Below, in pieces: positions 35,505 to 45,690 of a stretch of 64,000 nucleotides of DNA; within the stretch, counting starts at the first letter, position 1; every line of letters begins with the position of its first letter. Where the stretch lies: assembly GCF_017656495.1 (NCBI RefSeq), contig NZ_JACDNS010000007.1, forward strand, positions 1 to 64,000, written 5' to 3'. The stretch comes from Thermococcus sp. (lineage in GTDB: Archaea; Methanobacteriota_B; Thermococci; Thermococcales; Thermococcaceae). The translations under genes and the position numbers were made by a program. The notes under the pieces were generated by a model. It was not told the origin of the DNA. It saw only the letters and a program-made list of their open reading frames with translations, and ran no database searches.

Positions 35505-36602
35505 TCAAAGAGAGAGTGGGGCATCAAAGAGTGTGACGTTCTCAAGTCCTCTGCCGAGTATTATGGTGTCTTCCTTCTTCACAGCACCCTCGGGAATCAT
35601 GAGAGGTGCGTGCACCATTGCTAAAGCCATTCCCTTTTGGGCTTTCATTGCCCTATGTGGAACAACTATTGTCGTTATCGGATCTTCCTCAATTAAGAGC
35701 CCGACTCCATGAGCATAGCCTGTTATGTAGTACTCTTGGAGTCTCTTCTCCCTGTAAACGGCGGCTATTTCTCTCTCTACCTGAGCGAAAGTAACTCCTG
35801 GTCGGGTCTTCTCCAGAGCTATCTGATGAACTCTCTCCATGGCTTCAATAGCTCTCTTGGTTCTTTCTTCTGGTTCACCAATGAAAAAGCTCCTCGTCAT
35901 GTTTGCATAATAGCTATTGTAGTCAGCACCGATTACTATGGTCACAAACTTGCCCCTCTCAACTTTGATGTCTCTAAAAGGCTCAGCGTGTGCTCTTGGA
36001 GTTGCGGAGACGTACACTTTTGGGTCTTCGCTTCCGCTGAGCATGAGCTCTCTAACGATTTCAGCCGCTATCTCAAGCTCACTTTTTCCCGGCCTTATGG
36101 TTTCTACTGCCACTTTCATGCCTTTAACTGCAATTTTTCCAGCCTTTCGTATATTTTCAAGCTCCCACTCGTCTTTTATCATTCTTAGTTGCATCGTAAG
36201 GGGCCTGACATCTTCGATTTCCACGCCGGGATTAAGTCGCTTGAAAATTTCATAAAACAGAATGTATGCATCCCTCTCAATAGAAAACTCCATGCCAATG
36301 GTGTTGTATCCGTTTTTCCTAATCCACATCGTCACAATTGCCATCAAATCTTCCGTCTTTTGAAACTCTTCCACATTTTCAATCCAGCTCCTCTGCATGA
36401 AAAGCTTCTTTTCTCCTTTAGCCACAATAACTAGCGGCTCACCTTCTGCTGGAATAAGGAGCGAAGGCCTGAGCCATTTAGTCCCAGTGAAATAAATAAA
36501 AGTCGAAAGAGTTCTTATAACAGCACCATCTATTTCCTTCTCTCTTAGGAGCTCTTGAAATCTTTCGAGTCTTTTTTTGAATATCTTTTCATTCCCTTTC
36601 AT
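35505..36602 (-). CDS. M24-fold protein (prolidase-like) lacking most metal ligands
   Basis: A 365-aa creatinase/prolidase-like protein: N-terminal domain (residues 1-130) and a pita-bread domain. Compared with archaeal prolidase, the first Asp ligand pair is changed (IVIGADYNSYYANMT; Asp to Val and Asp to Asn). HGVG is kept, the EPG glutamate is replaced (AMVHAPLM) and only the last Glu (KKEDTI) remains. It is therefore unlikely to be a two-metal peptidase. GGTGGAGTGAGCA precedes ATG. It may bind a ligand or have another role. Confidence 0.75.
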   Translation of the reverse strand: MKGNEKIFKKRLERFQELLREKEIDGAVIRTLSTFIYFTGTKWLRPSLLIPAEGEPLVIVAKGEKKLFMQRSWIENVEEFQKTEDLMAIVTMWIRKNGYNTIGMEFSIERDAYILFYEIFKRLNPGVEIEDVRPLTMQLRMIKDEWELENIRKAGKIAVKGMKVAVETIRPGKSELEIAAEIVRELMLSGSEDPKVYVSATPRAHAEPFRDIKVERGKFVTIVIGADYNSYYANMTRSFFIGEPEERTKRAIEAMERVHQIALEKTRPGVTFAQVEREIAAVYREKRLQEYYITGYAHGVGLLIEEDPITTIVVPHRAMKAQKGMALAMVHAPLMIPEGAVKKEDTIILGRGLENVTLFDAPLSL

Positions 36603-36605
36603 TGC

Positions 36606-36917
36606 TCACTCCACCTTAATTACCAAAAACCTCATCTCTAAGCTGCCTGTGTTTACAACTCTATGGGGAACTTCCTTAGGAAGGTAAACAAGGGTAGCTT
36701 TCTTTACCTCTTCTTTTTCCTCTCCTACTTCCACGACACCCTTTCCTTTTATTATGTATAGGAATGCATCCACAGGTGTTGTGTGCCTCTTAAGTTCTTC
36801 TCCAGGCTTTAGTGTTATATGGAATATCTGGGCATTGTCCATACTAATCAGCTTTCTAACATCTACTCCATGAGGGTTCTCAATTCTTTCAGCTTCTTCA
36901 ACTTTTACAACAATCAT
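36606..36917 (-). CDS. small cupin protein
   Basis: A 103-aa single-domain cupin. FHITLKPGEELKRHTTPVDAFLYIIKGKG carries the first cupin motif and LVYLPKEVPHRVVNTG the second, with His and Glu as probable metal ligands. GGAGGGATTGAA precedes ATG 36917. It starts 1 bp after the end of the DUF438-PAS gene and ends just before the M24-like gene, so the three likely form one operon. Confidence 0.8.
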   Translation of the reverse strand: MIVVKVEEAERIENPHGVDVRKLISMDNAQIFHITLKPGEELKRHTTPVDAFLYIIKGKGVVEVGEEKEEVKKATLVYLPKEVPHRVVNTGSLEMRFLVIKVE

Positions 36918-36918
36918 T

Positions 36919-38256
36919 TCAATCCCTCCAGTCCAAAAGTCTCTTTTCCCCTTCAAGCTTTCTAATTTCAGTAACATCTTGAACAACTTCAAGAGTTCCC
37001 AAGTACTCACCGTTCTCGTCTCTCACAGCGAAGTAGCGGATGTGTATGAACCTTCCGCCCATTTGAATCCAGAATTCCGCAACATCTTTTCTGCCTTCTT
37101 TAAATGCCTTGAGAATTTTGTTAACTATATGAACGCTCTTTGGTGGATGGCAGAGCTGCACAGGTCTTCCGATTATCGAGGGTGTCCTCGTAAATATTCT
37201 GTCTCCACCAGAGAAAAACCGTACTCTGTCGTCTTTGTCTATGAATGTTATATCAACGGGAAGGTGTTTGAATATTGCGTCTATTTCTTTTGGCGAGAGA
37301 TATCCGATATCAAGCTCTAGATCACCTTCCCTCTTTACTTTTGTCTTATCTTCCTCAAGCTTCTGTCCCCTAAGTGCCATCTGGACTTCCTTTGGCAAAC
37401 TTAGGATTTGTTCTGCTGTTAGGGTTGTGTCAATCTCGTAGGGGTGCAGGGGCTTAGCTTTTGGCCTCCATTTATTTCCAGGCCTAACTTTGTAGTATCC
37501 CATAGCATCTTCCTGCTGTCTTATAGCGACCCATTCTCCCTCGGAAAGCAGAGCTTTTAGTGTTGGATAGAGTATGTTGTTCTCCCTGAATATCATGTCA
37601 ACTAGAGCTCTTGAAAGTTCTGAAGCTTTTTCTTTGACCTTCTTCACGAAGTCTTCCCAATCCATTTTATTTTCTTTATTTAATATCTCAATTAGCTGCT
37701 TTATCATCGCTCTTATTTCATCATGCTTTGTCCAGAGGACTGTTGGGACGGCTGTAATACCCCTCCTCTCAAGGTAAGGGAAGAGCAGCATCTCCTCCCT
37801 GTTGTAGTGAGTGAATCCAACAGCCCTGAGCTGGTTGGCTATTCCTTTGAGAACTCCAAGGAGTTCCTTTCTCATCTTTTCATCTTTTGTGTTGGCTAAA
37901 GTTGAAGCGTAAAGATTAAGCATCTCTGCATCTTTCATGATCTCTTTGTTCTCTTCATAGAGTGTGTGGAGAGGATGACCCGGAGGAATATCACTCAGCT
38001 CTTCCTTCTCAGCTCCAGAAACTGCTTCTCTGAAAAGCTCAACGTGGATGTCGCACATCTTTGCGATTTCTCTCGCAGAAATACCCTCTTTAACAAGCTC
38101 CTGTTCAATGAGTGGTATTTCTAGCGGTGAGATGCTTCTCAAAAGCTCTTTAAACTCTTCCTTGAGCTTTTCAACGTCTTCTCCTTTGTGGATTTTCTTC
38201 AAAAGCTCTTTCATTTTCTCTTTCTTATACTCACGATTTTTCAAGATTTCAGTCAT
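36919..38256 (-). CDS. DUF438 - hemerythrin-like - PAS domain protein
   Basis: A 445-aa soluble protein. Residues 1-75: DUF438-type helical region ending AREIAKMCDIHVELFREAV. Residues about 90-240: hemerythrin/HHE-like four-helix region with HPLHTLYEENKEIM, THYNREEMLLFPYLE, KHDEIRAMI and ENNILYPTL, whose His and Glu residues could hold a di-iron centre. Residues about 330-440: PAS domain (LPVDITFIDKDDRVRFFSGG to EYLGTLEVVQDVT). Such proteins are thought to sense oxygen, NO or iron. GGTGATAAG precedes ATG 38256. No kinase or output domain is attached. Confidence 0.78.
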   Translation of the reverse strand: MTEILKNREYKKEKMKELLKKIHKGEDVEKLKEEFKELLRSISPLEIPLIEQELVKEGISAREIAKMCDIHVELFREAVSGAEKEELSDIPPGHPLHTLYEENKEIMKDAEMLNLYASTLANTKDEKMRKELLGVLKGIANQLRAVGFTHYNREEMLLFPYLERRGITAVPTVLWTKHDEIRAMIKQLIEILNKENKMDWEDFVKKVKEKASELSRALVDMIFRENNILYPTLKALLSEGEWVAIRQQEDAMGYYKVRPGNKWRPKAKPLHPYEIDTTLTAEQILSLPKEVQMALRGQKLEEDKTKVKREGDLELDIGYLSPKEIDAIFKHLPVDITFIDKDDRVRFFSGGDRIFTRTPSIIGRPVQLCHPPKSVHIVNKILKAFKEGRKDVAEFWIQMGGRFIHIRYFAVRDENGEYLGTLEVVQDVTEIRKLEGEKRLLDWRD

Positions 38257-38594
38257 CTTATCACCTTCATGACACATGTCATATTTAACACTTTTAAATC
38301 TTTCTACACATTTTGGCAATTTCCAAGTTGCTTCCTTTAGGTGGCTTCTTCAGATTTTTGAGGAGCTCCTTATACTTGCTACGAGCAGTTAGATTTTTCT
38401 GCCCACATGGTTCATTCAATTGTTGAGAGATGCACTTACAGCGCTTTTGTTTCAAGAATTTTCTTTCCATTAATATCAACGAGAAACCAAATCCATCAAA
38501 TTTTTTGGCTCTTCAGGACTTGGCTTAGCACAAAATTTAATGTCCTGCATTTTTCTTCAACTTCCCTGTCTCAATTCTTTCAGGTTTTAAGAGG
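38257..38594 (-). other. 338-bp stretch without a convincing gene
   Basis: On the minus strand it holds a 61-codon frame (38294-38479, rich in Lys and Cys, with KQKRCKCI and EPCGQK) and a shorter 24-codon frame beginning MQDIKFCAKPSPEEP. Neither has a good ribosome binding site or recognised domain. It may be remnant sequence between the decayed immunity-like gene and the DUF438 gene. The DUF438 promoter should lie here. Confidence 0.4.
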
Positions 38595-39078
38595 TTCTTT
38601 GTAGTCATTAATCATTTTCTAGTACTCTTTAATCCCGTTCTCCTCAAATATGCGGATGCAGGGTTCCATCTCCCGGATAGCCTCTTCTGTGACGTCAATT
38701 ACAGTTCTTACAAACTCTTTGATTGGCACCCTACAGACCTTCCTGTAGTCTACACTTACGAAATAAATATACTCGCCCCTCCTAAACCCATAGACAAGTA
38801 ATCTCGGATCGTAACTTCCAAGGAAAGACCTTAAAATAGGTTGAAGAGCAGTTCGTTAAATTTCTCCCCTAACAGCCCCCGCAGGGTTTTGACTTCCTCC
38901 CAAGCCAGTTCGGGAGTTCTGTGAGGCTCTTGAAGCTCCATCCGTAGAATCTCACGTTCTTGGGAACTTCTCCAGTTATAGCATAAAATACAGATCGGAG
39001 AAACTCATGGAGGTATGCATTGAAGTTAACGGTCAAATTAAAAACTTTCTCCAGGGTATCTCTTCTTACTCCTTTCAT
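38595..39078 (-). pseudogene. immunity-like paralogue, decayed (copy 7 of array)
   Basis: The minus strand reads VFNLTVNFNAYLHEFLRSVF, matching the core of the intact paralogue at 42573-43250, but needs at least two frameshifts to continue into RSFLGSYDPRLLVYGF and FEENGIKEY. An in-frame TAG (38619-38621) then follows before KMINDYKEPL. The conserved LGSYDP core and the end match the family. About 45 N-terminal residues are missing. Its first ATG overlaps the stop of the upstream intact copy (ATGA). Confidence 0.7.
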
Positions 39079-39722
39079 TCCATGTGGCTATATTTTATCA
39101 CGGCTTTTATCCATTGGATACGAGGTCTAAGCGATTTTAAGGGACTAAACATCTCTACTATTCTTTCCACGTCTCTAACGGCCCTTAAGATATCCTTCTC
39201 AAGGACATCTGCGTACTCTCCAGCATTTACATTAATCTTCAGCATCTTGTCGAGCGATGTTATCTCAAGGATATCTCCCCTTTTATGAAAAAGAAGTGTT
39301 CTTATAGGCTCAAAAGTCCCAAAAAGCAGTTTGAGAGAATCAGTGTAAAAGAGCGATCTCTCTAAATCCATGCCTCTAAGTGGGTTTACCTCCAAGGGAA
39401 GATTTGAGAGATCAAGGATTCCTTTTCTGCCCTTCCTAGCATAAAGTATGGACCAGGCAACATCTTCGAAGAAGTCAATTAAATTCCCTATAGCGGGGGC
39501 TATGAGTTCTATGTCCCCTATCTTTAAACCATATCTAACCATGTCGTATTCAAATGCTCTTGAGATAATGTCTTTGAGGAGCTCGTTAAAATTTTCCTCA
39601 TCCCCTTCTTCAACGGATTCACTGTAGGTTTCCATGGTATCTGAGAGTGACGATAAAACGGCTTCTCTTAGGTAACCAGCGGTCGGAAGAGTGTACCAAA
39701 GGCGAATTTTTATTTTTGTCAT
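39075..39722 (-). CDS. immunity-like protein, intact (copy 6 of array)
   Basis: A 215-aa soluble acidic protein of the same family as the other array members, recognised by LKLLFGTFEPIRTLLFHKRGD, which lines up with FGSYDPSLRIFILNEKEN in copy 1. The N-terminal half is helical (LIAPAIGNLIDFFEDVAWSILYARKG). GGAGGTGTGCTC precedes ATG 39722; the frame opens at 39752. It lies 51 bp after the broken second toxin C-terminus and is likely its cognate immunity gene. No known domain is recognised. Confidence 0.65.
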   Translation of the reverse strand: MTKIKIRLWYTLPTAGYLREAVLSSLSDTMETYSESVEEGDEENFNELLKDIISRAFEYDMVRYGLKIGDIELIAPAIGNLIDFFEDVAWSILYARKGRKGILDLSNLPLEVNPLRGMDLERSLFYTDSLKLLFGTFEPIRTLLFHKRGDILEITSLDKMLKINVNAGEYADVLEKDILRAVRDVERIVEMFSPLKSLRPRIQWIKAVIKYSHME

Positions 39723-39773
39723 GAGCACACCTCCAATTAATATCATCAGCATATTTATAAAAATAAAAGGGGA

Positions 39774-40320
39774 TTACTTTAACAGATATGCTGTGACAAC
39801 CTTATAGCTTTTCGAACCTATCCTCCGGAGCACTACTCTTACCTTTCCAAGCTCAGTATTAACCTCAAGCGCGACTTCTCTGGAGTTTGAATGTTCACAG
39901 TTGACTTCTCCTTAGAGTATTGCTTTTTTAATGACATTTGCGAGCCACTTTCCAGTTACACTCTTTGGAAAGACTATTGCATCAGGTTCTCCGTAGTAAA
40001 CTTTTCCTTCGTAATGCCTCCTAATAATGTGTCTCAAATCACTCTCAAAAAGTTTCACTTTCCCTGGAGGCCAGTATCCACAGGGCGCATCTCTTCCTTT
40101 AAATTTTGGAAGATTTCTAGTCTCTTTGTATAGCTCTTCAGCGAATTCTTTCGCTTTGTTTGCATCCCATCCGTTGAGCCATGCCCTTACAAGGAGTTCT
40201 CCGAATTCTTTTGGGATGAAGAGGTCTTTGACGGCCTTCACTTCGTATCTAGTTATTGTATGGCTGTTTCACTATGATGGCCTCTAGATTTTTGGCTGAT
40301 GACTTTGATGGGTTATGCCT
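39774..40320 (-). pseudogene. second EndoU-like toxin C-terminus, no N-terminus, internal stop
   Basis: The frame EVKAVKDLFIPKEFGELLVRA, then NGWDANKAKEFAEELYKE, then DLRHIIRRHYEGK matches the C-terminal third of the intact toxin at 43367-44359. It breaks at an in-frame TAA (39912-39914) where the intact copy has Gln, then continues in the same frame with GEVNCEH to VRVVLRRIGSKSYKVVTAYL and a final TAA at 39774. Upstream, homology goes on through a 2-bp deletion to about 40310. There is no signal peptide or start signal, so it is a toxin cassette left behind or kept for recombination. Confidence 0.75.
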
Positions 40321-40799
40321 TTAGTCTTTCGAATTCTTTTTTGCGTCTTTGATGGCCTCATCCAGGGCTCTTAAAAGAACTTCCTTTGAAACTTTAATGG
40401 TGATTTTAGCCCACGCAACAAAGAACAAGGCAACACTATCACCAAGGTTGGAAACGTAGATTATCTCTAAAGGATCGTAAGTGCCAAGGGTAAACCTAAC
40501 AAAGGGTGGATTAATACAACTTGCTAATTCGCTTAGGCTAATAAATCCTTTTCCAGATCCTGCTTTAGTTGGGCAATGTCCCATACCACCCTCCACTTTT
40601 CCTTGGGCAGTTTTCCTTCCTTAATGAACTCTTTCAGTTCTTTCAGGTCATCTAGGTAATCCTTTAAGTTGATGGTAGCATTTAGAATGTAAACGTCGCC
40701 ATAAATCTCAATATCATACTCATCTAAGTAGCTCTCATCACTCTCACTCCAGATGAGGAACTCTTCTGGGCGAATGAGTCTGAATCTCAAATATTCCAC
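40321..40799 (-). pseudogene. immunity-like paralogue with one frameshift (copy 5)
   Basis: The first frame starts at GTG 40799 (VEYLRFRLIRPEEFLIWSES) and contains LNATINLKDYLDDLKELKEF, matching FNATVYFNEFLNDL of copy 1. It stops at 40533, while an overlapping frame continues GFISLSELASCINPPFVRFT, LGTYDPLEIIYVS to the C-terminus. Adding one G to the AAAAGGA run near 40550 restores LEKGFISLSELA and one protein of about 158 aa. Confidence 0.65.
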
Positions 40800-41109
40800 T
40801 GTTACTGGCCTCTTCTGTAGAACACAGCTTATATTTTTTATAGAACCCGTCGAAGGCTCTGCAGGAGCTTATCAGCGTTGTGTAGTCCGGCTCGTCCTCA
40901 AGCTCCATCTCCTCAAAATCATCCGAGAGCAGGTAAAGGGTCCCATAGGCCAGGCTCTCGATGGCGAGTATTAACTTTAGGGGATGCACGGTCGAGGACA
41001 CCTCCACGGGGCCGAGCTTTGTCCTGTAGTGTCCGAGCGGAACAATAATAGCTTTCCAGAGTGTTTTATCATGTACCTCGAGGCTATTCCAAGTTATCGA
41101 GCATTCCAC
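40744..41109 (-). CDS. immunity-like paralogue, probably truncated (copy 4)
   Basis: A 121-aa frame with GTG 41109 after GGAGGTTGATGCC. Its middle (TVHPLKLILAIESLAYGTLYLLS) aligns with the corresponding helix of copy 3. It lacks the conserved G(S/T)YDP segment found in all longer copies, and its last residues (EIQTHSPRRVPHLE) are out of frame with copy 5, so the C-terminus may have been lost by deletion. Possibly still expressed. Confidence 0.5.
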   Translation of the reverse strand: MECSITWNSLEVHDKTLWKAIIVPLGHYRTKLGPVEVSSTVHPLKLILAIESLAYGTLYLLSDDFEEMELEDEPDYTTLISSCRAFDGFYKKYKLCSTEEASNSGIFEIQTHSPRRVPHLE

Positions 41110-41113
41110 GGCA

Positions 41114-41625
41114 TCAACCTCCAAGCACGTTCCTGTACTTGCTCTTCCGCACGAGTTCTTTCACGCGTTCAAGCCCCGTCAGGTACGCTTCATCTTTAGT
41201 CCCTTTGAGGTACTCCTCAAGGAATCCTAAGGCGGCCTTCACGTACTCTTGAACTCTAACCTTCTCCCTCCCGACCAATCGTCCGTCCTCAAAAGCCTCA
41301 ATGAGCAAGTAATCACTCTCCTTTCTGAACACCACCGCGTAAATCGGCTCGTATGTCCCAAAACTCACCCCGAGCTCTCCGTTCCTGCAGTTCCTTGTTA
41401 TTGCTCTCCTATCATCCTCCTCGAACTTTTCAAGCACATATAGGATTTCCTCGCATGACGTGACTACATAGGTTATTGTGGCAAGAATCGCTTCTAATGC
41501 CTGTACAATGTAGCAAGCAGCCACACAATCCGCTTTCCATTCACCTCTATGATAATCCAAGCCCCAAATCCCTTAGATTCCTCCAGCTCTTTGAGGGGAG
41601 TGTCTATTGAGAACTTAATCGACAT
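41114..41625 (-). pseudogene. immunity-like paralogue with frameshifted N-terminus (copy 3)
   Basis: The 5' frame from ATG 41625 reads MSIKFSIDTPLKELEESKGF and goes on to IIIEVNGKR before a stop at 41494. The 3' frame from about 41540 reads VQALEAILATITYVVTSCEE, then GVSFGTYEPIYAVVFRKESD and VKAALGFLEEYLKG. One base change near 41525 would join them to a protein of about 170 aa. It belongs to the array family by the FGTYEP core. Confidence 0.55.
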
Positions 41626-41694
41626 TAGGGCTATCTTCCCACATTTTCTCATTAAAAATTTATTAAAGGTGGTGTGTCAGTCCAAGTTCCCGAA

Positions 41695-41724
41695 ACCCAT
41701 TTCGAACTTCTCCATTCATTTTCC
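41695..41724 (-). repeat. 30-bp repeat at immunity gene starts, copy A
   Basis: About 26 of 30 bases match 43245-43274, the ribosome binding site and first codons of the intact immunity gene. Here the copied start codon opens only a seven-codon frame (MGFGNLD) and overlaps the stop of copy 2, so it is a leftover 5' end from a deleted cassette. Confidence 0.6.
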
Positions 41725-42408
41725 AGATATTGTAGATTCATATCTTCCCGTTTTTCTTTTCAAGAGTTCCCAGACATCTTTGAGGGTATTTATGCGCTTG
41801 GCATATTCGTTGATTCCATATTCTTCGAACAGCGGAATATACCCATTGAGTTCCCTAAGTGCCATTTCTACCACTTCAGCAACGTATCTGGCAAATCGTT
41901 TTGTTTCCAGTTTAACAACTTGCTTGTAGGGGATGCTAACGAGGTATAGAGTATCTCTTTCCTTGAAGGCAAACATTGGCACTGTAGGATCATAGCTCCC
42001 AAGAACCGAGTAGAAAACAGGGGTTAAAGTTAAAATTTTGGATTTTTCCTTTAGAATCTCTTCAAGAACCTTAACATCTTCCTTTAGCCATTTTGGAGTG
42101 TCATGTATGTTCTCGAGCATCATGCCGTAGAAATCAATCCTTTTGGGTATATCACCAGAAACGGCATAGAAAGCGAGTGCAATGAGATCTAAAAGAAACA
42201 CATCAAAGTTAACCGTTGCCTAGGATATTTCATTTTCCCTGTAAAACATCCACACTTCATATTCCTCCAAGCATTTGGTGATAATCAACTCATGACTGTC
42301 TCCCTTACTAACTCCGTGCTCTATGATTTCCTTTCCTAATTTTTCAAACGGTTCATAACCTCCATAAAATTCGAATTGAATATTGAATTTTGCACTCTTT
42401 TCTCTCAT
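41716..42408 (-). pseudogene. immunity-like paralogue with single in-frame TAG (copy 2)
   Basis: One frame from ATG 42408 (GGAGGAGAATC upstream) to 41716 is interrupted only by TAG at 42220-42222. Before it: LIITKCLEEYEVWMFYRENEIS; after it: ATVNFDVFLLDLIALAFYAV, which aligns with NATVYFNEFLNDLAGSMLYA of copy 1. The rest has SVLGSYDPTVPMFAFKERDT and a conserved end (GINEYAKRINTLKDV). Without the stop it would be about 230 aa, full family length. Confidence 0.72.
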
Positions 42409-42572
42409 GATTCTCCTCCCTATAATTCTTGAATATTTGATGTCAAATTATTTTAGATCATTGAAAAATAAAAATAAACCCTGGTACCAGATTCACTTGT
42501 CTACGGGAAATGCTGTCTATAACTTCCTATTCAACATAATCACTTTCTTAGTAATGCCCATTTTACATACCA

Positions 42573-43250
42573 TCAACGCATTCTGTGAATTTCTCTCAAA
42601 AATTCTTCTATTGTTTCTACGGTTTTTTCATAAGCCATGATAATGTTGGTGTATTCCCAAATCCCATGCTCTTCAAAGATAGTCTTGTGCCTCTTTAGCT
42701 CACTAATACCAGCTTTTAGAGTATCAAATACAACTTCCATGAATTCTTCTCGAGGAATCATTGCAACTCTTTCATAGTCCAGATTAACAAAATATATATT
42801 CTCTTTTTCATTCAATATAAAAATCCTAAGGCTGGGATCATAACTTCCAAAAGATAGTTTCAAAAATGGTCTTGATGTTAAAGCAGAAAACTTTTCCCCA
42901 AGTAGAAATTTAAGTTCCCCTACTTCTTTTTGGCGCCAAGGTTTTAAATCCCTATTGCAACCCATGAAGTTGTCAAGGTTCATAAATATCCATTCCCCTA
43001 AAATTGACTTAGCCTCCTCCGTCTTACCTAGGGCATAAAGCATGCTTCCAGCCAAATCATTGAGAAATTCATTGAAATAAACAGTGGCATTAAAGAGTTC
43101 TTCCTCATTATGAGATATTATAACATCGTACTCCCTAAGTGCTTCGTTAATGATGTTCGTAGGATTCTCTGTCTCTGAGATATCTTCAAGAATTTCAACA
43201 ATCCAATCCTTAAACGCCTCTGGGAGGACAAACTTCATCCTGAAGCCCAT
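42573..43250 (-). CDS. immunity-like protein, intact (copy 1, next to the toxin)
   Basis: A 225-aa soluble acidic protein, first gene after the toxin and the best candidate for its cognate inhibitor. It has an N-terminal region (VLPEAFKDWIVEILEDIS), the helix NATVYFNEFLNDLAGSMLYA, the family core KLSFGSYDPSLRIFILNEKE with IYFVNLDYERVAMIP, and a helical end (GIWEYTNIIMAYEKTVETIE). AGGGGGAGTTCGAA precedes ATG. I recognise no described immunity family, so the function rests on position and on the repeated paralogues. Confidence 0.65.
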   Translation of the reverse strand: MGFRMKFVLPEAFKDWIVEILEDISETENPTNIINEALREYDVIISHNEEELFNATVYFNEFLNDLAGSMLYALGKTEEAKSILGEWIFMNLDNFMGCNRDLKPWRQKEVGELKFLLGEKFSALTSRPFLKLSFGSYDPSLRIFILNEKENIYFVNLDYERVAMIPREEFMEVVFDTLKAGISELKRHKTIFEEHGIWEYTNIIMAYEKTVETIEEFLREIHRMR

Positions 43251-43274
43251 TTCGAACTCCCCCTTTCATTTTCC
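43245..43274 (-). repeat. 30-bp repeat at immunity gene starts, copy B
   Basis: This is the start region (ribosome binding site and first codons) of the intact immunity gene; a near copy lies at 41695-41724. Shared sequence of this kind at cassette edges would allow recombination between array members. Confidence 0.6.
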
Positions 43275-43366
43275 TAAACATTGTGAATAACAACCATTCC
43301 AATGTTGACAAACCAACCCTGGGCCATGTCATTAGGTAAAAATAAAAAGATATCCTGGTGGAAGTG

Positions 43367-44359
43367 CTATCTCTTTAGGTATGCTGTTATCACCTTGTAA
43401 ACTTTTCTTGTTCTATCGTATGAAAGGATAACTCTCACTTTTTTGCCGACCCATTTTCCTTTAAAATATCCAAATTTTTTCTCAATAGCAAATCTGTCTG
43501 GTGTATGTTTCCTATCATTGCAGTCAATTTCGCCTTGTTCAATAGTTTCTTTAATAATGTCCAAAATGAATCCAGCAGACCAATCTGCTGGAAAGAGCGT
43601 TGGATCTCGTTCTCCAGGTCGTTTCTTTCCTAAAATGTGACGCCTGATGATGTGTCTTGCTGCATTTTTGTCTATAATAACGTCTTCTTCTGGAAAGTAA
43701 CCTCCACAGCTGTATCTCCCCCTGAAACGTGCTCTGAAACTCTTATACTTTTTGTCAAAATCCTCCGCAAGCTTCTTAGCTTTGTTTGCGTCCCATCCGT
43801 TCAGCCAAGCTCTCGCAAGGAGTTTGCCGTATTCTTTCGGAGAAAACAGATCTTCAACGGCTTTCACTTCGCTCCGGGTTATTGTTATAACAGGCTTCAC
43901 TATAACGGCTTCCTTCTTGAGCCCCCACCATTCCTTCTTAACATAACCGTACCCAATCTTCGCCTTGCTTCCCCAAAAGTTCATCTTAACGCCTTTCGCC
44001 AGTTCCTGACCATTGTACGAAATCTTGTCTGGAATTTCGCTTACGAAAGCTTGAGTAAACTCGCTAACCGGTTTTGAGTAAACGTACTTCGCAATTGCTG
44101 CCACAATGCTTCCTATTGCCACTATCCATCCTATGCCCGGGACAAAGACCTCGAGGAAAGGCTCTATCACGATAGTGGCACCGGCGCCCTCTGGCTGGAC
44201 TTCACCTCCCGGCTTCCTCTCGGGAGTGAGTTCTTGCGGAAGCTCCACCGTACTGTTAGTAGTTGCATTCACGAATTCTGCAGTCGCACTTGCACTGCTG
44301 AACGTTAATCCTAAAATCAAAAAACCTAAGAGGAACACAGCAAAATGCTTCCGCCTCAT
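43367..44359 (-). CDS. exported protein with C-terminal EndoU-like RNase toxin domain
   Basis: A 330-aa protein. Residues 1-28: signal peptide (FAVFLLGFLILGLTFSSASA). Residues about 30-60: low-complexity Pro/Thr/Glu region. Residues about 68-95: hydrophobic segment (FVPGIGWIVAIGSIVAAIA). Residues about 150-200: linker with NGWDANKAKKLAEDF. Residues about 225-330: toxin-like domain with ARHIIRRHILGKKRPGERD, then TLFPADWSAGFILDIIKETI and the end GKKVRVILSYD to VYKVITAYLKR. His residues, FPxDWS and a final VxxVITAY strand match the layout of bacterial EndoU toxins (PF14436). GAGGTGATTAC precedes ATG 44359. Immunity-like genes follow at once. Confidence 0.65.
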   Translation of the reverse strand: MRRKHFAVFLLGFLILGLTFSSASATAEFVNATTNSTVELPQELTPERKPGGEVQPEGAGATIVIEPFLEVFVPGIGWIVAIGSIVAAIAKYVYSKPVSEFTQAFVSEIPDKISYNGQELAKGVKMNFWGSKAKIGYGYVKKEWWGLKKEAVIVKPVITITRSEVKAVEDLFSPKEYGKLLARAWLNGWDANKAKKLAEDFDKKYKSFRARFRGRYSCGGYFPEEDVIIDKNAARHIIRRHILGKKRPGERDPTLFPADWSAGFILDIIKETIEQGEIDCNDRKHTPDRFAIEKKFGYFKGKWVGKKVRVILSYDRTRKVYKVITAYLKR

Positions 44360-44630: not shown

Positions 44631-45690
44631 TCACTCAAGATCCTCCGCCAGAGCGGAGCCTTCTTCTATTTTTACCTCTTTGTTAAGCATGTTCTTGAGG
44701 TCTTTCTCTGGATCACTTGTAAGTCTCAAGTCAAATTGCTTTCTAAGGATTTCAAAGACTCTGAGTGTTAAAAATTCTGGGGGGCATTGGACCGATATAA
44801 ATTCCCTTAACTCCGAGGTAGAGCAGTGTGTAGAGTATTCCAATTGCCTTTTGCTCCATCCATGAGAGAAGTATTGAATTATTGAATAAACGTTGTTACA
44901 TTGACCGAAGTCGAGGAACCTTGGAATACCTTCAATTGTACCATAATCTCTCGCATTGTAGCGGAACTTGCCACATGCCGCTGAGAATATTAGAGCATCG
45001 TCAGGAATCAGCTCGGTTGGCTTTTCGTAGTAGCCCATGCCCTTGTGCGGCGTATCACAGCCATCCCCCAACAAAGATGTGCTTTGTCTTGTCCCCTGGA
45101 TTAGCTCAATGAGCTTGTCCCTCATGGCCAAAACGTTGGTGTGGTGGAAGCCTGTGAGTAACTTTTCTCCTTCTCTCTTCTTCATTTTTGGCGTTTCCAA
45201 AGCTCTCTTTATCAAAGACTCGAAGTTATAATCTCTAATCCTTTGAGCCCAGCTATCCCGACGGTGAAAAATCCTATCATCGTAGGCATCTGTTGGTTTC
45301 TGAACACAGTTGCTTGTGCCTAAAATAACGTCTGGGAATTCTGTAAACTCTTTCTTTTGACGAAGTCAAATCTTTCCCCTCAATTTTCTACCAAACGGTC
45401 GAACTTTTTGAACTTTGAATATGCATGAGCTGGAAACATCTCTGTATGGGTGTATACGATATCAGTTCCTCCAGTTTATTTGAGGAGTTCATAGAGGGCT
45501 TTATAGTTGTGATCTGTTACCAAAACTCCATAACCTTTTTCTGTACCCGTAGAGCTCATGTTGACTCTGGTCTTCCAAATATCTCTCCTTGTCAAGAGAG
45601 CTTCATAGCCTCCAAGTGTATCCTACCATTTTCAAGAATTAACTCCAAGATTGTACAGCATATTTCTATCTCACTTTTATGAAATTTTAT
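44631..45690 (-). pseudogene. hcp: hybrid cluster protein (hydroxylamine reductase), truncated and decayed
   Basis: Fragments in several frames match Hcp in order: GRIHLEAMKLS, YGVLVTDHNYKALYELLK, a stop, VYTHTEMFPAHAYSKFKKFD, another stop, then one long frame from about 45360 with PDVILGTSNCVQKPTDAYDD, ELIPDDALIFSAACGKFRYN and [17 protein letters not shown]. Several ligand cysteines of the hybrid cluster remain (TSNC, GDGCDT, SAACGK). The N-terminal half is missing, so the gene cannot make a working enzyme. The remaining long frame (44631-45215) might still be translated but is probably without function. Confidence 0.8.

Follow-up and report, generated by a model that had tools for sequence, protein, structure and literature searches.

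The first 64 000 nucleotides of contig NZ_JACDNS010000007.1 of Thermococcus sp. (RefSeq assembly GCF_017656495.1), hereafter called the window, contain a minus-strand locus at 38595–44359 that is very probably a polymorphic toxin–immunity system, in which a Sec-exported carrier would bear swappable nuclease ends, each paired with an immunity protein. As far as sequence comparison can show it, an export signal, a constant carrier, variable ends, strict subtype pairing, cassette remnants and a chromosomal hotspot are all present, and from these we infer RNase activity, toxicity, uptake, protection and recombination. An original prediction, made from the sequence alone, had placed a polymorphic toxin–immunity locus here, and the constancy of the carrier, the variability of its ends and a strong coupling between toxin and immunity subtypes bear it out.

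The toxin gene and its C-terminal domain are located as follows.

43367–44359, minus strand: exported polymorphic toxin of 330 aa, with signal peptide, scaffold, middle domain, pretoxin linker and a likely BECR-type (Barnase-EndoU-ColicinE5/D-RelE) C-terminal domain of subtype d
43370–43732, minus strand: C-terminal toxin domain, subtype d, with conserved H236 (43652–43654), H241 (43637–43639) and T325 (43385–43387)

The reading frame starts with the ATG at 44359, with GGAGGTGAT just upstream, and stops at 43367. Residues 1–25 read as a Sec-type signal peptide (n-region MRRK, hydrophobic core, predicted cleavage between SSASA and TA), and are followed by a conserved N-terminal scaffold to approximately residue 65, a middle domain with a hydrophobic segment, and the linker DLFSPKEYG..LNGWDANKAKKLAE before the C-terminal domain. 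The motifs HIIRRH, FPADWS and VITAYLK are all found in the protein, and the exported toxin that had been predicted from them and from the signal peptide stands. The nearest complete relative, in genome G018 (L003/L060), is 73% identical over residues 4–328, and the ratio of nonsynonymous to synonymous substitution rates (dN/dS) between the two toxins is around 0.06, a rough value because dS is saturated. A search of the window genome gave only two toxin-related matches, namely the full toxin and an orphan C-terminus at 39777–40259.

The toxin or parts of it were matched in 33 of 94 Thermococcaceae genomes, and the gene that follows it, I1, in 19 of the 94. A profile of the C-terminus matched 32 of the 115 genomes of the phylum, every one in Thermococcaceae; no match was found in the 21 genomes that belong to other families of the phylum, or in plasmid records, phage records and viral contigs. 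The first 65 residues, a signal peptide followed roughly by FVN.TVN.TV.VP.EFSPE.KPGDEVQPQ, are common to proteins with at least three types of middle region and several types of C-terminus. Of the carriers, 25 have a length of 290 aa or more; 15 of these terminate in a BECR domain recognized by A1, the profile of the BECR-type C-terminal family to which the window toxin itself belongs, and seven in a PD-(D/E)XK domain (UPF0102, 1.2e-4, and Mrr_cat, 0.0015, in the one member scanned); the remaining three are EndoU-like (0.0065), PBECR3-like (7.5e-5) and unclassified. Ends of the A1 type are preceded by a near-constant linker, DLFSPKE.G.LLA.A.LNGWDANKAKKLAE. The occurrence elsewhere in Thermococcaceae of the same N-terminus with different C-termini (BECR, PD-(D/E)XK and others), which the original prediction had proposed to look for, is therefore established. 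A 3.4-kb contig of a metagenome-assembled genome (MAG) labelled Thermotogota (L100:1-3419) has one toxin end, of type c2, along with four genes of the immunity family and nothing outside the array, and may represent either a transfer to a bacterium or a mis-binned contig.

We collected 34 toxin ends together with the gene after each, and used 32 non-redundant pairs for a Mantel test. The similarity of the toxin ends predicts that of the next genes (r = 0.87; none of 20 000 permutations as high, maximum permuted r 0.378), although, since the pairs are related by descent, the number of permutations cannot be read as an exact probability. The subtypes nevertheless recur across different genera, sites and carriers. 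For example, TAHPVDWD ends are followed by FLGSYDP genes, TAFPPSSRRY ends by FTLSTYDP genes, type-c ends by M..VHLWYTLP..FGTF(D/E)P genes and type-d ends by FGTYEP-type genes. The PD-(D/E)XK ends have a separate immunity family next door in seven of seven cases, the proteins of which start with VAVF..PW or YFVFDK. Each of the 28 immunity matches has a toxin match no more than around 8 kb away on its contig, so that the paralogues are not widespread without a linked toxin. Intact toxin and immunity genes show dN/dS values of approximately 0.06–0.23 (dS being saturated in the pair that includes the window toxin), and both kinds of gene are, by this measure, under purifying selection. Furthermore, stand-alone cassettes of a C-terminus and an immunity gene occur downstream of carriers, several of them in L070 and others in the window array.

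These features bear on the very unlikely explanation that the proteins are secreted scavenging nucleases used in nutrient acquisition, with downstream genes unrelated to protection. An exported BECR protein that stands alone beside hisS at two loci, with no immunity neighbour, is what such an explanation would lead one to find, but a scavenging enzyme would not be expected to show strict subtype pairing, several unrelated nuclease ends per carrier, arrays of cassettes or a fast turnover at a single site. The stand-alone protein, a distant match to the C-terminus profile (around 184 aa; L116:2233-2787 and L117:1985-2533, in two Thermococcaceae genomes) has a signal peptide and HxxxRH and TAYP motifs, and similar-sized weak profile matches exist in several more genomes; it is a possible ancestor of the toxin ends.

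Downstream of the toxin, the pieces of the array were typed by tblastn with intact relatives, which confirmed the homology of each.

42573–43250, minus strand: I1, intact, immA-like and divergent; 37% (36–38%) identity to immA and at most 44% to any relative found
42493–42516, minus strand: what is left of a type-h toxin C-terminus (TAFPVDK, stop), immediately upstream of I2; compare RIVTAFPVDK and stop in type-h toxins
41716–42408, minus strand: I2, type-h immunity gene, 73% to L071 (imm_h), with an in-frame TAG at 42220–42222
41114–41634, minus strand: I3, type-d immunity gene, 78% to imm_d of L060, with a one-base frameshift near 41515
40840–41109, minus strand: I4, type-j immunity fragment, residues 1–90 of 304, 71% to the imm_j N-terminus
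40321–40844, minus strand: I5, type-e immunity gene, C-terminal part, 63–75% to imm_e, with a frameshift near 40540
39777–40259, minus strand: orphan toxin C-terminus and pretoxin linker, type c, 81%, with an in-frame TAA at 39912–39914
39075–39752, minus strand: I6, intact type-c immunity gene, 55% to L080 (imm_c), matching the orphan type-c toxin end
38586–39051, minus strand: I7, pieces of type-A immunity, 47% and 67% to immA, N-terminus lost and frame broken

The minus-strand order toxin, I1, I2, I3, I4, I5, toxin C-terminus, I6, I7 is thus the one originally proposed, and the second toxin end in mid-array, seen then as an orphan, is now typed as c; the short type-h remnant at 42493–42516 had been overlooked. 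The core (F/L)G(S/T)(Y/F)(D/E)P, thought to unite the related proteins, is seen in I1, I2, I3, I5, I6 and I7 but not in I4. Of a gene of 304 aa, the latter retains the N-terminal third alone, and as the core is missing as well, we count I4 as broken too; it had been left unmarked, while I2, I3, I5, I7 and the orphan toxin end had rightly been marked as broken. On this typing, the array is mostly composed of decayed cassettes of other pair types, with only I1 and I6 intact. The type-j immunity gene at L067:6778-7692 has a stretch that is 78% identical to type b (compare window positions 40321–41109), which suggests recombination within immunity genes besides that between cassettes.

The C-terminus of the window toxin is 59–81% identical to other type-d ends. 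I3 shares 78% identity with the type-d gene that comes next after the toxin in L060, the closest complete relative, and because the window toxin is of type d, the family rule names I3. Thus, family pairing favours the frameshifted I3 as the family cognate as regards ancestry. The original prediction had paired the toxin with the protein encoded at 42573–43250 (I1), and this pairing, which is compatible with a polymorphic toxin system, is now doubtful but keeps a little less than an even chance of being right: I1 is intact and immediately adjacent, and in other pairs the adjacent gene is of the cognate type, but type-d partners are FGTYEP-type proteins whereas I1 is immA-like at 36–38%, and the gap between toxin and I1 is 117 nt compared with 38–56 nt in other type-d pairs. 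I1 is a possible present-day protector; in the window genome either I1 would have taken over protection or I3 would have been lost recently. The extent of the decay, in which five of the seven immunity pieces (the family cognate I3 included) and the orphan C-terminus are broken, could also mean that the locus is a non-functional relic in the window genome and functional in its relatives. This seems unlikely, as the toxin, I1 and I6 are intact, and the toxin keeps its conserved active-site residues, a ribosome-binding site and a low dN/dS relative to L060 (rough, with dS saturated).

PBECR1, PBECR2, PBECR3 and EndoU all belong to the BECR superfamily. With the curated Pfam cut-offs of 27.1 bits for PBECR2 (PF18810) and 25.3 bits for EndoU (PF14436), the type-e relative L077 passes PBECR2 (28.9 bits, 1.5e-6), and the other profile matches of family members are all sub-threshold (PBECR3 2.5e-5, PBECR1 0.0033, EndoU 0.015). 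No member reached the EndoU cut-off, type-d ends scoring 13.6–16.1 bits and L073 17.3 bits. In an AlphaFold model of the mature toxin, the C-terminal domain (pLDDT mostly 80–97) shows a layout of helices (206–218, 237–250) and antiparallel sheet (strands 200–204, 264–270, 282–290, 295–304), with one apparent helix-plus-sheet unit. In the A1 alignment, the helix residues H236 and H241 never vary, nor does T325 in the last strand. A BECR fold would have a helical segment at its N-terminal side and after it a sheet of four strands, with S/T on the fourth. One known arrangement of the BECR active site combines N-terminal histidines with a serine or threonine on strand 4, with probable metal-independent chemistry, and in EndoU the BECR-fold unit occurs twice, the catalytic residues being H, H, [SNT] and [SNT] (Zhang et al., PMC3482391). 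The predicted RNase chemistry of the window toxin is, by analogy, most likely metal-independent. Neither the toxin nor the C-terminus profile gave a meaningful match in sequence searches of the PDB, and searches of NCBIfam and PHROGs gave no useful one; against viral models, Foldseek returned a single match to the toxin below E 0.001, a large phage polyvalent protein.

Several results weigh against the proposed system. The window's own domain lies under every Pfam cut-off (EndoU, the best, 15.4 bits; PBECR3 13.2 bits) and gives no match to PBECR2. Foldseek found no PDB match to the whole mature toxin at E <= 0.001, and the folds of RelE, HigB, YoeB and CdiA-CT (Kp342) recur solely among its weak matches. 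In the carrier, we identified no domain for trafficking or receptor binding. The window toxin is also the sole outlier of the subtype coupling, being followed by I1 and having its type-d cognate frameshifted, and a search of the window genome with a composite type-d sequence, not the exact L060 protein, gave no further type-d immunity copy. From the PBECR2 match of L077, the invariant histidines and threonine, and the layout of the model, we conclude that the window toxin end is likely a BECR superfamily domain; with its scores sub-threshold, EndoU as the specific family is not supported. The EndoU-like RNase toxin originally predicted therefore survives as a BECR-type C-terminus. BECR is also the fold of RelE and ParE toxins, and, with the weak matches to RelE and HigB, might suggest an intracellular type II toxin–antitoxin system. 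We consider this hardly credible, since complete copies bear a signal peptide and a carrier, the toxin gene comes first and the immunity gene second, and unrelated nuclease ends occur on the same carrier.

For the polymorphic toxin–immunity system that we prefer, we propose that a short Sec-exported carrier, near-constant across Thermococcaceae, would bring to competing relatives a C-terminal nuclease that can be exchanged; in the window toxin this would be an RNase of BECR type, most likely metal-independent. Each C-terminus would travel in one cassette with a dedicated cytosolic immunity protein, and the latter would bind and block the matching toxin subtype. New cassettes would enter by recombination at the conserved pretoxin linker (DLFSPKE..LNGWDAN) that follows the carrier part, and those displaced would decay downstream, giving rise to the array at the chromosomal hotspot. 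We lean slightly towards an antagonism system native to hyperthermophilic Thermococcaceae, in which a minimal Sec carrier without any known bacterial delivery module is combined with an immunity superfamily that evolves fast and has a new fold, each of its subtypes neutralizing only the BECR RNases of the matching subtype.

Members of the immunity family overall share the core (F/L)(G/S)(S/T)(Y/F/S)(D/E)P and look soluble from their sequences. None of the tested members reached a Pfam cut-off, and the tested window members had no match in NCBIfam. The AlphaFold model of I1 (pLDDT 86.8, pTM 0.84) matched no PDB fold at E <= 0.001, and the fold appears to be new. The family, predicted from the outset to be a new one, is apparently undescribed so far, although the survey of Makarova et al. 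(2019) may list some of these loci.

The locus resembles bacterial polymorphic toxins (Rhs, CDI, MafB, LXG; Zhang et al. 2012, PMC3482391) in its constant exported carrier, variable C-terminal nuclease, adjacent cognate immunity gene, displaced cassettes downstream and pretoxin linker at the junction. In contrast to the bacterial systems, the Thermococcaceae carrier is short (around 330 aa) and has no RHS, filamentous haemagglutinin, HINT or other recognized secretion domains, the occurrence is limited to Thermococcaceae save for one doubtfully binned MAG contig, and many BECR subtypes are served by an immunity superfamily that matches neither Pfam families nor PDB folds. Similarity to PBECR2 and PBECR3 (PF18810, PF18812) and to EndoU_bacteria (PF14436) takes in the helix with HxxxxH as well as the strands at the C-terminus; the PBECR families were described from phages, whereas here the domain terminates an exported cellular toxin. 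Predicted nuclease ends with immunity genes are known in archaea from what PMC8416519 relays of Makarova et al. (2019, mBio) and from PMC3482391, the archaeal cases of the 2012 survey being confined to methanoarchaea (Methanosarcina) and haloarchaea (PMC3482391). The VARTIG system of Thermococcales (PMC8416519) is likewise Thermococcales-specific and hypervariable, with an exported first gene and downstream genes of matching type, but it consists of Ig domains and membrane proteins, with no nuclease found in it, whereas the window locus has nuclease ends and soluble-looking immunity proteins. We reject membership in VARTIG, as no Ig-domain match was found in the window toxin and its partners look soluble. 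A polyimmunity locus, as described by Zhang et al. (2012, PMC3482391), has no toxin cassettes among its immunity genes; here, orphan toxin ends of types c and h stand between such genes, and this classification is rejected too. On sequence grounds, the locus is a new lineage-specific member of the polymorphic toxin systems.

Predicted archaeal polymorphic toxins were experimentally uncharacterized as of 2021 (PMC8416519), and antagonism between archaea has been little tested. Similar predicted loci in about a third of the related genomes open it to direct test: some ten defined toxin–immunity subtype pairs, in natural matched and mismatched combinations, come from relatives of genetically tractable Thermococcus, and with them specificity, activity and delivery can be addressed directly. 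The immunity family also offers a natural series for the co-evolution of toxin recognition.

The locus occupies a chromosomal hotspot, bordered in the window by the following genes.

44631–45215, minus strand: truncated hybrid-cluster-protein (prismane) gene, 194 aa, the upstream border
36919–38319, minus strand: DUF438/hemerythrin/PAS protein, the downstream border
36606–37010: cupin, after the DUF438 gene
35505–36602: M24 peptidase, after the cupin

In around a dozen other genomes, toxin genes or pieces of them lie between winged-helix and hybrid-cluster-protein genes on one side and DUF438, cupin and M24-peptidase genes on the other; the toxin content between these borders differs among genomes, and some contigs show one border alone. 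A tRNA integration site was looked for and none was found. The hybrid-cluster protein has 194 aa in the window compared with mostly around 440–465 aa in the other hotspot genomes, and the array may have removed the start of its gene. In another MAG (L103:6986-8821), a type-h toxin end, an immunity gene and a type-d remnant lie inside the M24 peptidase gene, where they replace around 140 bases; unless the assembly is chimeric, this interruption is as expected of a mobile cassette.

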